DNA from: Archangium lipolyticum
GTDB taxonomy: Bacteria; Myxococcota; Myxococcia; Myxococcales; Myxococcaceae
Reading direction: 5' to 3'
DNA length: 64,000 nt
Assembly: GCF_024623785.1 (NCBI RefSeq)
Contig: NZ_JANKBZ010000005.1
Span: 434,001-498,000 of the forward strand
Shown: positions 40,886 to 47,438 of the stretch, in pieces
Position numbering within the stretch: position 1 is the stretch's first letter
Layout of the letters: every line of letters begins with the position of its first letter
Made by a program: the position numbers and the translations under genes
The notes under the pieces: generated by a model
Told to the model about the DNA's origin: nothing
The model's database searches: none
The model's input: only the letters and a program-made list of their open reading frames with translations

Positions 40886-41563
40886 ATGGTCCAGACGAAT
40901 GGTGGCAATACCCTTTCCGAGCTGACGCTCGAGCAGGTGGCGGACTCCATCCGCACCTACCTGAGACAAGGCAACGCCGGGCACTACAACATCGGCCTGC
41001 TCTACAACCACACCGTGGACAACCAGTTGGCGGAGAAGAACGGGTACGAGAGTGCCCAGGCGTACTTCAGCCAGCACTTCGAGGAACTCTCGCAGGCGAC
41101 CCTGACCCGGTACGGCACCGTGGCGCGGGAGTTCACCGAGGAGGCGTGCGGGATGTATGGCGTGATGAAGCTGATCACGCTGCGCACCTACTTGCAGGTG
41201 GCTGAGCTCCAGTTCGCGGCAGGGGAGCCGGGCGCGACACCCATCGATGTGCCGGAGGAGGGCGGGATCGTGAAGCAGAAGCCCTTCGCCGAGTGCAGCC
41301 TGGAGGAGCTGAGGCAGGCCGTGAAGCACAAGCGCAACCCGACCCGTGCGACCATGCCCACCACGGATGCGGACCGCGTCGAGTTCATGCGGCAGTGCTT
41401 CTCGAGGCACTTCGCCAAGGGCACCCGCGTGCAGCTCAAGACGAACTTCCAGCGCGGCAAGACGCTCCTCACCATCCAGGGCGTGCCTCTGGATGATGTG
41501 GAGCGGCTCATGGAAGCGCTGATGGATGGCTTCCAGCCCCAGCTCGTGCGTTCGGCGGGGTGA
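40886..41563 (+). CDS. Protein of unknown function, cytosolic
   Basis: A 225-residue soluble protein without signal peptide or membrane segment. It has a helical N-terminal half (LTLEQVADSIRTYLRQGNAG, EEACGMYGVMKLITLRTYLQ) and a mixed C-terminal half (TLLTIQGVPLDDVERLMEAL). I recognise no family and no catalytic motif. A GAGGGGGG purine run precedes the ATG. It is divergent from a membrane protein across tandem palindromes and convergent with the tyrosinase gene, separated by a hairpin. Function cannot be inferred from context. Confidence 0.78.
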   Translation: MVQTNGGNTLSELTLEQVADSIRTYLRQGNAGHYNIGLLYNHTVDNQLAEKNGYESAQAYFSQHFEELSQATLTRYGTVAREFTEEACGMYGVMKLITLRTYLQVAELQFAAGEPGATPIDVPEEGGIVKQKPFAECSLEELRQAVKHKRNPTRATMPTTDADRVEFMRQCFSRHFAKGTRVQLKTNFQRGKTLLTIQGVPLDDVERLMEALMDGFQPQLVRSAG

Positions 41564-41617: not shown

Positions 41618-42541
41618 TCAGGCCTGCAGGTCCGCGAGCGTGTCGTAGTCGTAGCGGTCGTTCGCGGTGAAGGGCGCACCAGGGGAGAGCGGATCCAACA
41701 TGCCGCGCGGGGTGACCCGCGTGGTCTCCCGGAAGACCGAGTAGAGCGCGTCATCGAGCCGGTGAAAGGACAGGGTGTTCGCCGCGTTCTGCGCGGGGAC
41801 GTACGGGGCATTCGGGTAGCGCACCCGCCACGCATGCCAGATGCGGTCCACGTTGCAGTGGTGCAGGAAGAACAGGGGGTCGTTGGGCGATGTGCTGTCC
41901 GTCATGTCGCCGCCCACCCAGACGTGCACGATGTTGTGGAGCCCCGGACCCTCCCAGCCCTCCAGGTAGTTGCGGAAACCGTTCGAGGTACTGTTGTACG
42001 GCGGGGCGTCGTAGAGGACCTGGTCGCGCAGCACTGAGCGGACCTGCTCGCGCGTGGGCAGTGCGCCCTCCCTGCCGGGTGCGCGAGCGAGAGGCCGTGG
42101 CCGTGCCAGGCGCGTGAGTCCCCGCTCCGCCGGGACGACACGCACCTGCCAGACGGCAGGCGAGGTGAAGCGGCCCATGGCACCGTCGGCCCAGAGGGGG
42201 GACTGGCGTGGATCCGCCAGCGCCGCATCCGCGGCCCAGTCCCAGTACGGCAGCCGGAACTCCGGGTCGCGGAGCGCGATTCGGAGATACACCTCGAAGC
42301 GCAACAGGAAGTACCGGTGCCACGGCAGGAAGGCCGGGCCCGAGTGGGCCGCGTTGCGGTCGCGCTGCGTGGGCGGGGTGAAGAGCATCATCGACTGGTG
42401 GTGCCAGGACACGAAGAGGTCATAGATGGAGAGCCCCTGCTGTCCCGGCCAGGGAAAGCGCGCCGGGTCCTTGAGGGCCAGCACGCCGTCGATGAACTGC
42501 TGCCTGACGGTCTCGTCGGCGAGGATGTTCCGGCGGATCAT
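41618..42541 (-). CDS. Tyrosinase/polyphenol oxidase (type-3 copper)
   Basis: A 307-residue type-3 copper enzyme that should hydroxylate or oxidise phenols to quinones. CuA ligands are His47 or His48 (SWHHQS), His66 (AAHSGPAFLPW) and His75 (PWHRYFL); CuB ligands are His202 and His206 (LHNIVHVW) and His227/228 in FFLHHCNVDRIW. These are the six expected histidines. FRLPYWDW and DPLFFLHH are hallmark stretches. There is no signal peptide; length is close to Streptomyces MelC2. The ATG overlaps the stop of a small His-rich gene as ATGA, recalling the melC1-melC2 pair. Physiological substrate (melanin-like pigment, matrix cross-linking) unknown. Confidence 0.92.
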   Translation of the reverse strand: MIRRNILADETVRQQFIDGVLALKDPARFPWPGQQGLSIYDLFVSWHHQSMMLFTPPTQRDRNAAHSGPAFLPWHRYFLLRFEVYLRIALRDPEFRLPYWDWAADAALADPRQSPLWADGAMGRFTSPAVWQVRVVPAERGLTRLARPRPLARAPGREGALPTREQVRSVLRDQVLYDAPPYNSTSNGFRNYLEGWEGPGLHNIVHVWVGGDMTDSTSPNDPLFFLHHCNVDRIWHAWRVRYPNAPYVPAQNAANTLSFHRLDDALYSVFRETTRVTPRGMLDPLSPGAPFTANDRYDYDTLADLQA

Positions 42542-43035
42542 CGAGCACCTCCATGCACATGGGCGGGCTGATGCGCGTGTCCGCCGTGGTCCATGTGGCG
42601 GCCTCCATCGTCCCCCTCGGGAGAGGGCTGAGCCGACTCGAACAGGTGCGGCATGCGCTCGATGAGGTGGCGGACGAGCTCCGTCGCCGTCGCGAAGGTC
42701 AGGTAGGGGCACAGGTGGGACCAGAGCCGGCCCTCTTCATCCACCATCATGTGCAGCGTGACGAGACGCTCGTTGACCCGGACTTCGTACGTGGTGGTGA
42801 TGGTGATGGTGTTTCCCTGGTGCTCGAGTACGCGGGTGCTGCGCGCGAGGGCCTCGTGCGAGTGCTCGACGTAGGAGGGGAAGTCCTTCATCACCCAGTC
42901 CGGGTGTTCGCTCCCGGGTTTGAATGGGTCGAACACCGCGAGTGGGACGGCGCGCGGCTCGTTCTTGCTCCGGGCTCCCGTCTCACGGTGCGTTCGTGTC
43001 TTCTGTCTCGCCGGGCGCTTCGTCTTGGCTGGCAT
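42538..43035 (-). CDS. Small protein with His-rich tail, coupled to tyrosinase
   Basis: A 165-residue protein with a strongly basic N-terminus (MPAKTKRPARQKTRTHRETG), a folded middle (TITITTTYEVRVNERLVTLH, LCPYLTFATATELVRHLIER) and a tail rich in His and Gly (HMDHGGHAHQPAHVHGG) fit to bind copper. No signal peptide. The stop overlaps the tyrosinase start by ATGA, so the two are made together. By position and metal-binding look it could be a copper-loading caddie, as MelC1 is for Streptomyces tyrosinase, but it shows no sequence likeness to MelC1 that I can see. The role is inferred. Confidence 0.8.
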   Translation of the reverse strand: MPAKTKRPARQKTRTHRETGARSKNEPRAVPLAVFDPFKPGSEHPDWVMKDFPSYVEHSHEALARSTRVLEHQGNTITITTTYEVRVNERLVTLHMMVDEEGRLWSHLCPYLTFATATELVRHLIERMPHLFESAQPSPEGDDGGRHMDHGGHAHQPAHVHGGAR

Positions 43036-43171
43036 CGACTGCCTCCCCCGTTGGTACGGCTCGGGGGATTCATAGGGCAGGGGATGCGCGGGACGCGAAG
43101 GCGGGCCCGACGAGGGATTCAGTTGAGAACACCAGGGGCGTCAGGTCGCTCGCTGTCGACCCCCGCGAGCC

Positions 43172-44591: not shown

Positions 44592-47438
44592 TCAGCTGGC
44601 GGCGGGCTGGACGCCGACCGCCGCGTGAGGAGCGGGCGATGACTGCGGGGGCCTGAACGCGAGCAGCCGCAGCCCGTTGGCGACCACGAGGAGCGTGCTG
44701 CCCTCGTGGAGCACCACGGCGTGGCTGATCTGCGTGAGCCCGAGGACCGCGGCGATGACCAGGATGCCGCTCACCCCGAGGGAGATGACCAGGTTCTGCT
44801 TCATCACCGCCGTGGCCTTGCGCGCCAGCTCCAGGGCGAAGGGCAGCTTGGCGAGGTCATCGCTCATCAGCACCACGTCGGCCGTCTCGAGCGCCGCATC
44901 CGAGCCGGCTCCACCCATGGCCACGCCCACCGCGGCGGCGGCGAGCGCGGGCGCATCGTTCACGCCGTCGCCCACCATGGCCACCGAGTGCTGCTTGCCG
45001 ATCTCGCGCACGGCGGTGACCTTGTCGGCGGGCATCAGTGGCGCGCGCGCCTCGTCGATTCCCACCTGCGAGGCGATCGATTTAGCCACCAGCGCGTTGT
45101 CGCCGGAGAGCATCACCGTCCGCTCGATGCCCGCCTGCTTGAGGTTCTGGATGACGAGGTGCGCCCCGCCGCGGACGGTGTCCGCCACGCCGAGCACTCC
45201 GAGGTAGCGCCCCGCCTTGCGCACCACCATCGTGGTCTGCCCCGCCTCCTCGAGCTTACGGACCTCGGCGGAGATCTCCCGCGGGATGCTGTCCCCGTCG
45301 AAGAGCGCGAGGTTGCCGACCTCCACGGGCTGCTCGCCCACCTTGGCGCGGATGCCCTTGCCGTGGATGGCCTCCAGGTCCTTGCCCGCCGGAGCCTGGA
45401 TGCCCTGCTCGGACGCAGCGTCCACCACCGCGCGCGCGAGCGGGTGGGCGGAGAGCGACTCGACCGCCGCGGCGGTGCCGAGCAGCTCCTCGCGAGACAC
45501 CCCCTGCGCCGGAGCGCTGGTGAGCAGCCGGGGCCGCCCCACGGTGAGGGTGCCCGTCTTGTCGAAGGCGATCGCCCGGATGTTCCCGAGCAGCTCGAGG
45601 TAGATGCCACCCTTGACCAGCACGCCGCCTCGCGCCGCCGCCGCCACCGCGGACAGCACGGCGGAGGGCGTGGAGATGGCCAGCGCGCACGGCGAGGCCG
45701 CGACGAGCAGCGACACCGCCCGGAGGATGGCTTCCTTGAGCGGCGTGCCCATCAGCACGAGCACCACCGGGAACAGCACCGCCGCGCCCATCACCAGCGG
45801 CGCGAAGGTCCGCTCCATCCGCTGGGCGAAGCGCTGGTTGGGGCCCTTCTGGGCCTCGGCCTGCGCCACCATGTCCACCACGCGCGCGAGCACCGATTCG
45901 GAGGACAGCTTGGTGACCTCCACCTCCAGCAGCGCCTCGCAGTTGATGGTGCCGGAGAACACCTCGTCCCCCGGCTTCTTGGCGACGGGAATGGACTCGC
46001 CGGTGATCGCCGCCTGCTCCAGCGAGCTCTTGCCCTCGCGGATGATTCCATCGAGGGGCACGCGGTCACCCGGGCGCACGATGATGCGCTCGCCGCGCTG
46101 GACGTCGCCCACCGGCAGCTCGACGATGTCGTCCCCACGCCGGACCCGCGCCATCTCGGGGCGCAGCGCGCTGAGCGATTCGATCGACCGGCGCGCCTTG
46201 TCCATCGCCCGGTGCTCCAGCGCATGGCCCGCGCTGAAGAGGAAGAGCAGGAAGGCGCCCTCGAACCACGCCCCGAGCACCGCGGCGCCGAGCGCCGCCA
46301 CCACCATCATCGTCTCGATGTCGATGCGGCGCTGGAGGATGGACTGCACCGAGCCGCGGATGGCGAAGAAGCCGCCGCTCGCCATCGACAGGCCCCAGAT
46401 GACGGTCGGGACCAGGGCCGGGACGGGAGCGAAGCGCTCGACCAGCCAGCCGGCGACGAGCAGGACGCCGGAGGCCACCACCAGGGGCAGCTCAAGCTTG
46501 GGGGCCAGACCGCCGCCGTGCGCGTGGTGCGAGCAGGCATGGCCCGCGGTGGGCACCTCCAGCCCGTACCCGAGCGACTTCACGTGGGCTTCCACGTCGC
46601 TCAGCGTGAGCGTCTCGCGGTCGTACTCGATGACCAGGCGCTCGCTCGCATACGCCACGCTCGCGGAGAGGACACCGGTGAGCCGGCTGACGGCGTGTTC
46701 GATCACCGTCGCCGAGTCGGCCGAGTTCATCCCGCGCACGAACCAGGTGTGCTGCTTGTACCGCTCCGACACCACGGCCCCGGTGCTCTGAGCGAGCGCG
46801 AGCAGGTGCTGTACGCTCACCAGCTCGGGCTGGTAGTGGATGCAGATCTCCGCGTGGCCGAGGTCCCTCCGGAGGTGGACCTCGGAGATTCCGCGGTGCG
46901 CTTCCAGGGCGGCCTCGAGCTTCTGGAAGCGGCCGACCTCGTCCGTCTCTCCGGGCAGGGTGCCCTCGAGATCCAGCTGGAGCGCGATACCACCACCCTC
47001 CGCCGCCCGGTGCGCGGGCGGGTGGATCCGCCGGGTCGACTGGGGGTGATGGTGGTGGTGGTCGTGCCCGTGGTCGCAACCCGGTCCGTGCTCGTGACCG
47101 TGGTCGTGGTCATGGTCATGACCGTGCGAGCAGGAAGGTCCGTGGACATGCGCCTTCTCGTGCGCATGGCCGTGGTCGTGCTTGCAGCCAGGGCCGTGCA
47201 CGTGCTTCTCGCCGTGCTCATGAGCGTGGTCGTGCTCATGCACATGGTCGTGCTTGCAGCCAGGGCCGTGCACATGCTTCTCGCCGTGCTCATGAGCGTG
47301 CTGCTTCTCATGAGCATGGTCGTGCTTGCAGCCAGGACCGTGCACGTGCTTCTCGCCGTGCTCATGCGCATGGCCGTGCTTGCAGTCAGGGCCGTGGACG
47401 TGCCCGAGCACCCGGACGATCTTCTTCTGCTCCGACAT
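44592..47438 (-). CDS. P1B-4-type heavy-metal ATPase with extremely His-rich N-terminus
   Basis: A 948-residue metal pump. Residues 12-132 are five repeats around KHVHGPGCKHDH. Residues about 150-295 form two HMA-like folds without the CxxC pair; the second reads FVRGMNSADSA (236 on) where GMxCxxC is expected. Then TM helices, TGES (479-482), the ion-site motif SPC (582-584) rather than CPC, the phosphorylation site DKTGT (Asp626), the HP pair (665-666), GDGVND (823-828) and HEGST (911-915). SPC plus HEGxT mark the P1B-4 group, linked to Co2+, Zn2+ or Fe2+ export. The substrate is thus most likely Zn, Co or Fe (inferred). The gene follows two VWA genes by 7 bp. Confidence 0.92.
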   Translation of the reverse strand: MSEQKKIVRVLGHVHGPDCKHGHAHEHGEKHVHGPGCKHDHAHEKQHAHEHGEKHVHGPGCKHDHVHEHDHAHEHGEKHVHGPGCKHDHGHAHEKAHVHGPSCSHGHDHDHDHGHEHGPGCDHGHDHHHHHPQSTRRIHPPAHRAAEGGGIALQLDLEGTLPGETDEVGRFQKLEAALEAHRGISEVHLRRDLGHAEICIHYQPELVSVQHLLALAQSTGAVVSERYKQHTWFVRGMNSADSATVIEHAVSRLTGVLSASVAYASERLVIEYDRETLTLSDVEAHVKSLGYGLEVPTAGHACSHHAHGGGLAPKLELPLVVASGVLLVAGWLVERFAPVPALVPTVIWGLSMASGGFFAIRGSVQSILQRRIDIETMMVVAALGAAVLGAWFEGAFLLFLFSAGHALEHRAMDKARRSIESLSALRPEMARVRRGDDIVELPVGDVQRGERIIVRPGDRVPLDGIIREGKSSLEQAAITGESIPVAKKPGDEVFSGTINCEALLEVEVTKLSSESVLARVVDMVAQAEAQKGPNQRFAQRMERTFAPLVMGAAVLFPVVLVLMGTPLKEAILRAVSLLVAASPCALAISTPSAVLSAVAAAARGGVLVKGGIYLELLGNIRAIAFDKTGTLTVGRPRLLTSAPAQGVSREELLGTAAAVESLSAHPLARAVVDAASEQGIQAPAGKDLEAIHGKGIRAKVGEQPVEVGNLALFDGDSIPREISAEVRKLEEAGQTTMVVRKAGRYLGVLGVADTVRGGAHLVIQNLKQAGIERTVMLSGDNALVAKSIASQVGIDEARAPLMPADKVTAVREIGKQHSVAMVGDGVNDAPALAAAAVGVAMGGAGSDAALETADVVLMSDDLAKLPFALELARKATAVMKQNLVISLGVSGILVIAAVLGLTQISHAVVLHEGSTLLVVANGLRLLAFRPPQSSPAPHAAVGVQPAAS
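47049..47405 (-). repeat. Tandem repeats coding the His-rich domain
   Basis: Five near-identical units of about 54-72 bp encode successive HVHGPGCKHDH segments of the P-type ATPase. Near identity at the DNA level, including shared synonymous codons, points to recent repeat expansion and probable length variation. Confidence 0.8.

Follow-up and report, generated by a model that had tools for sequence, protein, structure and literature searches.

A likely MelC1-type caddie without a signal peptide, encoded ahead of a tyrosinase gene in Archangium lipolyticum

In Archangium lipolyticum, a small gene that overlaps the start of a tyrosinase gene encodes a protein that is likely a homologue of MelC1, the caddie protein of Streptomyces tyrosinase. 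The homology is drawn from sequence profiles, a spaced motif and a fold comparison combined. The gene pair itself is real and conserved. By analogy with Streptomyces, the small protein would be a divergent, signal-free MelC1-type caddie that supplies a cytosolic tyrosinase with copper and covers its active site by means of Tyr111, a reading to which we give a probability of about 0.8.

The pair is found in a window of 64,000 nucleotides (the whole stretch of DNA that was analysed), which is ~70% GC and belongs to a genome of 12.6 Mb. The original prediction described a tyrosinase and a His-tailed small protein joined by an ATGA overlap, and this is borne out. Both open reading frames are present on the minus strand, the small gene reading from 43035 down to 42538 and the tyrosinase gene from an ATG at 42541 to its end at 41618 (Table 1).

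Table 1. Positions of the tyrosinase gene, the small gene and their features in the window
Feature	Coordinates	Strand	Remarks
Tyrosinase, 307 aa	41618..42541	-	all six type-3 copper histidines present (PF00264 and MelC2 alignment)
Small gene, 165 aa, product likely a divergent caddie of the MelC1 type lacking a signal peptide	42538..43035	-	kept in 8 loci
Stop of small gene/start of tyrosinase overlap, ATGA	42538..42541	-	ATGA in 7/8 loci, TGATG in 1/8
Shine-Dalgarno-like GGAGG for tyrosinase	42548..42552	-	consists of small-gene codons for Gly162-Gly163
His-rich C-terminal tail	42553..42597	-	His147, 150, 153, 155, 159, 161
Modelled core, residues 58-137	42625..42864	-	structurally matched best by caddie chains of Streptomyces
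Tyr111	42703..42705	-	counterpart of caddie Tyr98, which enters the tyrosinase active site (PMC6312201)
Leu94-His95-Met96-Met97	42745..42756	-	counterpart of caddie Leu81-His82-Val83-Met84
Shine-Dalgarno-like GGAGG of small gene	43042..43046	-	

The last 32 residues of the small protein include six histidines. Related small proteins are found at eight loci, the one in the window included, and the number of histidines that follow a MPHLFE motif varies from three to seven among all eight. Gly162-Gly163 and Pro110 are invariant in the eight, and residues 37-66 form an additional conserved N-terminal stretch. At one locus (L013), which start codon the small gene uses is uncertain. The original prediction also placed the small protein in the cytosol, and by hydropathy it has no leader. 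Within the first 59 residues the best 15-residue mean is 0.3, compared with 1.37-2.04 in nine of nine MelC1 proteins, and hydropathy means reveal a hydrophobic N-terminal stretch in none of the eight small proteins (best 0.3). We infer that the protein is cytosolic.

The small protein was originally considered unlike MelC1 and was proposed to be a separate origin of a tyrosinase caddie. Neither claim is supported, as profile similarity, a motif with identical spacing and the comparison of folds each speak for descent from a common caddie family. Nine MelC1-type proteins served for comparison; they come from Streptomyces plasmid records, seven bearing a tyrosinase-cofactor or copper-chaperone annotation and two stemming from unannotated records (12 of 89 tyrosinase-bearing plasmid records were examined). 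An hhalign comparison of the eight small proteins with these nine gives a score of 39.8 (P 7e-6, probability 84.5%). The opposite direction yields P 3.9e-6 and a probability of 87.2%, and a repeat on a separately built alignment yields P 1.5e-5 and 79.5%; these probabilities of 80-87% are based on few, similar sequences. In the separately built MelC1 alignment the L066 row is shortened at the C-terminus, and the main comparison used the longer L066 sequence. In global mode the probability is 30-33%. None of 300 column shuffles of the small-protein alignment reaches the real score (maximum 24.5), and the reversed alignment scores 16.5. With the N-terminus and the His tail removed, the core still scores 38.8, against a maximum of 30.5 in 300 shuffles, so the histidine tail is not the source of the similarity to MelC1.

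The small protein also stands out among the 523 stop-to-stop open reading frames of the window (at least 60 aa). It ranks first with a MelC1 HMM (E 0.0024; next 0.13) and first when each frame is compared with MelC1 by hhalign (31.0; next 22.6). The motif L-H-x-M-x13-Y, which is present in 8/8 small proteins and 9/9 MelC1 proteins, is found in only one of the 523 frames, that of the small protein itself. In the numbering of the 1wx2_B alignment, caddie H82, M84 and Y98 correspond to H95, M97 and Y111 of the small protein with the same spacing. Caddie H97 aligns with Pro110, and the small protein has no equivalent of His97. In an alignment of the core from six of the eight small proteins and four of the nine MelC1 proteins (the L066 row being shortened at its C-terminus), Gly74, Leu94, His95, Met97 and Tyr111 are identical in all ten rows, and the small protein shares 18-28% identity with the four MelC1 sequences.

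Curated models do not recognize the protein. The small protein from the window has no Pfam family at E 1, and Pfam and NCBIfam searches with it return nothing beyond noise at E 0.14. Three of its seven siblings were scanned with Pfam. One matches MelC1 (PF06236) at the expected place with 13.3 bits (cut-off 27, E 0.087), ranked behind a sub-threshold PAS match (E 0.024), and the other two have no MelC1 match; three of the nine MelC1 controls score 93.6-141.2 bits against the same model. No PF06236 match above the cut-off is found in 59 genomes (own genome included), where the small gene is not picked even at E 0.1. The 22 sub-cut-off matches, in 20 of the 59 genomes, are treated as chance; 18 of them lie in frames longer than 250 aa. 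A MelC1 profile run over 193 genomes at E 0.01 does not find the small gene, and in the two genomes where it has matches (G064 and G137) these span its N-terminal half. Among PDB sequences, a profile of the eight small proteins finds no caddie at E 10 (best E 0.56, unrelated), the single sequence has an unrelated best match at E 0.13, and tblastn of the small protein against plasmids gives nothing useful. As the Pfam cut-off is missed and an H97 equivalent is lacking, the protein is termed a MelC1-like caddie rather than a member of PF06236.

A model of the core built from the single sequence (pLDDT 75, pTM 0.59) was used for structure searches, the full-length single-sequence model being poor (pLDDT 45, pTM 0.29). 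Foldseek places Streptomyces caddie chain 1wx2_B third (E 0.23), behind two SH2-domain rows, and among the best 50 rows the TM-scores are highest for caddie chains (0.45-0.53). When 658 Foldseek chains are realigned with VIA-align, ranks 1-20 are all caddie chains and the next row has a Z of 4.2; the Z-scores of these twenty, 4.4-5.1, are modest, and as values under 8 may reflect a common arrangement, they are by themselves no proof of a shared fold.

A copper chaperone of independent origin that merely resembles MelC1 is unlikely in the face of these data. Such an origin would fit the failure of the curated MelC1 model, the additional N-terminal stretch and the location of the His-rich stretch, which is C-terminal here and upstream of the core in several MelC1 proteins. 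There is also a precedent for an unrelated tyrosinase chaperone, PpoB2 of the Gram-negative Marinomonas mediterranea, an operon partner in copper transfer to tyrosinase (PMC2855505). By that description PpoB2 resembles putative transmembrane COG5486 proteins and is set apart as another family. However, independent origin does not readily explain a common motif with identical spacing, a profile similarity that far exceeds that of shuffles, or a VIA-align ranking led by caddie structures.

How a MelC1-like caddie might act here can be sketched from the Streptomyces system. According to two papers, the Streptomyces caddie carries copper sites and delivers copper to the apo-enzyme (PMC6312201, PMC8375020); its Tyr98 occupies the active-site pocket of the tyrosinase (PMC6312201); and the enzyme, once loaded, turns Tyr98 into a quinone, which stimulates caddie aggregation and release of the tyrosinase (PMC6312201, PMC8375020). 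By analogy, the small protein would be translated first, would remain in the cytosol and would bind the product of the overlapping gene downstream, the tyrosinase, in its apo form. Copper, perhaps gathered by the C-terminal His tail, would be presented via His95 and Met97, and Tyr111 would plug the active site until the enzyme is loaded. The loaded enzyme would then oxidize Tyr111, upon which the small protein would be released.

Slightly less likely again than an independent origin is that the small protein is a caddie homologue that no longer loads copper and serves mainly as a folding partner or a reversible lid of the tyrosinase. A proline in place of H97, the variable number of tail histidines and the retention of Tyr111 in 8/8 small proteins are all compatible with such a role. 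The invariance of His95 and Met97 speaks against it, as mutants of their caddie counterparts were crystallized with copper. By their titles, PDB entries exist for the caddie mutants H82Q, M84L, H97Q and Y98F, and three of these four residues (H82, M84 and Y98) have counterparts in the small protein.

Two neighbouring genes were also looked at. Positions 44592-47438 encode a heavy-metal P-type ATPase whose N-terminus bears a His-rich extension of ~130 residues. It scores above the NCBIfam cut-offs for the general heavy-metal and cadmium families and just under that of the copper model (385.5 vs 397 bits). The ATPase was dropped as a candidate copper supplier; of the eight loci, just two (the window and L010) have it next to the pair. 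The gene at 40886-41563 encodes a 225-aa protein with no Pfam or NCBIfam match, of which relatives carry several homologues (as many as four in one genome, E 1e-20).

The tyrosinase matches PF00264 with an E of 2.7e-40 (139.4 bits, cut-off 22.6). In the alignment with MelC2, its copper ligands H47, H66, H75, H202, H206 and H228 align with Streptomyces H38, H54, H63, H190, H194 and H216. With the MelC2 equivalog model (NCBIfam NF047834) it scores 198.3 bits, under the cut-off of 450 bits. At all eight loci a GGAGG or GGGGG is located within the last codons of the small gene, just ahead of the tyrosinase start. The Gly-Gly pair may never change because its codons form this Shine-Dalgarno-like site. 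Translation of the two genes is probably coupled.

Lack of conservation had been named in the original prediction as evidence that would count against it, and the pair is found to be conserved. The small protein is present in 7 of 98 genomes searched, own genome included, at eight places, and at each of the eight the tyrosinase gene is directly downstream. In the genomes searched the pair is restricted to two genera of one family. A small-protein profile run over 195 genomes of the phylum recovers the same eight places and one further match, in G194 (E 7e-4). The latter was rejected; the 383-aa frame concerned is repetitive where it matches and lacks the motif, and the tyrosinase WHR motif is absent from all frames of at least 150 aa in its 2.7 kb. 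Conversely, among 96 genomes of the family there are eight tyrosinases that are at least 78% identical, precisely those that are paired. One of these belongs to a second pair in the genome of the window (G000:C7:38730-40111, L009), in a different neighbourhood, with a tyrosinase that is 78% and a small protein that is 66% identical.

The eight loci represent five neighbourhoods: the window with L010; L012 with L013 and L015; and L009, L011 and L014 each alone. Neighbourhood open reading frames were picked by a GC filter that misses some genes, e.g., the L009 tyrosinase, and were then compared against whole loci; among the frames so compared, only the pair is common to different neighbourhoods. 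Two congeners lack the pair, and in them homologues of its two flanking genes from the window are separated by 54 and 58 bp (G001:C1:2754718-2754771 and G005:C424:9742-9799). They are ~4.5 kb apart in G002, where the pair is located elsewhere, and one of the two was not found in G004. As the gene at 40886 is multicopy, the flanking genes in relatives are homologues and not proven orthologues. The adjacency of flank homologues where the pair is absent, together with the differing neighbourhoods, suggests that the two genes come and go together. When the window genes are compared with seven relatives, dN/dS is low for the small gene (0.24-0.55) as well as for the tyrosinase gene (0.19-0.29), which fits purifying selection on both. 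ATGA overlaps are common in bacteria, and two unrelated neighbours might overlap by chance, but a pair that is present in 8/8 loci and five neighbourhoods, with both genes missing in two congeners, makes this very improbable.

The same genus has eight further tyrosinase loci. Their products are 38-47% identical, with open frames of 349-426 aa, and several seem, by eye, to bear a leader or lipobox. No small protein of the kind described here was found beside these eight. In a tyrosinase tree of 26 of 27 rows (all but the L066 tyrosinase; the distant matches L052, L063 and L064 were not among the 27), the eight paired tyrosinases form one clade (support 100/100) that excludes the eight further ones of the genus. 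The paired clade joins the side of Streptomyces and Priestia with weak support (77/64) and with a long-branch warning there. The operon may have a shared origin.

Streptomyces MelC1-MelC2 (caddie, PF06236, PDB 1wx2) has the same gene order as the pair, and its type-3 copper tyrosinase has the same six histidines. The core motif is common to both and the folds may be alike, as judged from the model. The secreted MelC1 has a Tat export signal, whereas the small protein displays no export leader by hydropathy. The His-rich stretch, the proline at the H97 position and the additional N-terminal segment are further differences.

A helper gene ahead of a non-secreted enzyme is also described for the Streptomyces intracellular polyphenol oxidases MelD1-MelD2 and GriE-GriF (PMC2758597). 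There, MelD1 is a homologue of MelC1, and the S. coelicolor form lacks a Tat signal; a signal peptide is predicted for MelD1 in some species, and MelD2 was mostly membrane-associated. The genes melD1 and melD2 share a 17-bp overlap in most of the species covered (PMC2758597). These systems are actinobacterial and are likened to the Archangium pair by description. A Bacillus-type tyrosinase on a Priestia plasmid (L073) has the same six copper histidines, and no helper gene is annotated within 1.5 kb of it.

A separate observation concerns Methylobacter sp. YRD-M1 plasmid NZ_CP091426.1. A 93-aa open reading frame with no evident leader (L074:1080-1361) ends 1 bp ahead of a lectin-fused tyrosinase. 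It aligns with MelC1 over 68 columns (hhalign P 7e-5, probability 63%), has no Pfam MelC1 match, and does not align with the Archangium-type family (hhalign P 0.34). Its sequence suggests that it is perhaps another unrecognized Gram-negative caddie.

Since MelD1 and PpoB2 are already known, the small protein would be neither the first caddie to lack a Tat signal nor the first tyrosinase chaperone of a further type. Within the searches made, those of the literature included, what is new is a diverged, non-actinobacterial caddie with a different layout that curated models miss. A caddie or tyrosinase of these bacteria appears in no title among the literature matches listed; copper and melanin in Myxococcus xanthus are the subject of PMC7010606.

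More tentatively, at what we would call somewhat under even odds, the pair represents a cytosol-only, non-actinobacterial branch of the caddies. In this branch the histidines that collect copper would have shifted to a tail at the C-terminus, and the final codons of this tail would also serve as the ribosome-binding site of the tyrosinase. If such a branch exists, caddie and enzyme would be tied together at both the RNA and the protein level, and copper loading would be a function that can be separated from the part of MelC1 in export and that may predate it. The claim of a second invention of a caddie is corrected, and the caddie concept, studied mainly in Streptomyces, would extend to another group of bacteria. 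The pair offers a natural experiment on the loading of a tyrosinase without export. As only part of the studied copper-handling residues are kept, it also offers one on which caddie residues matter.
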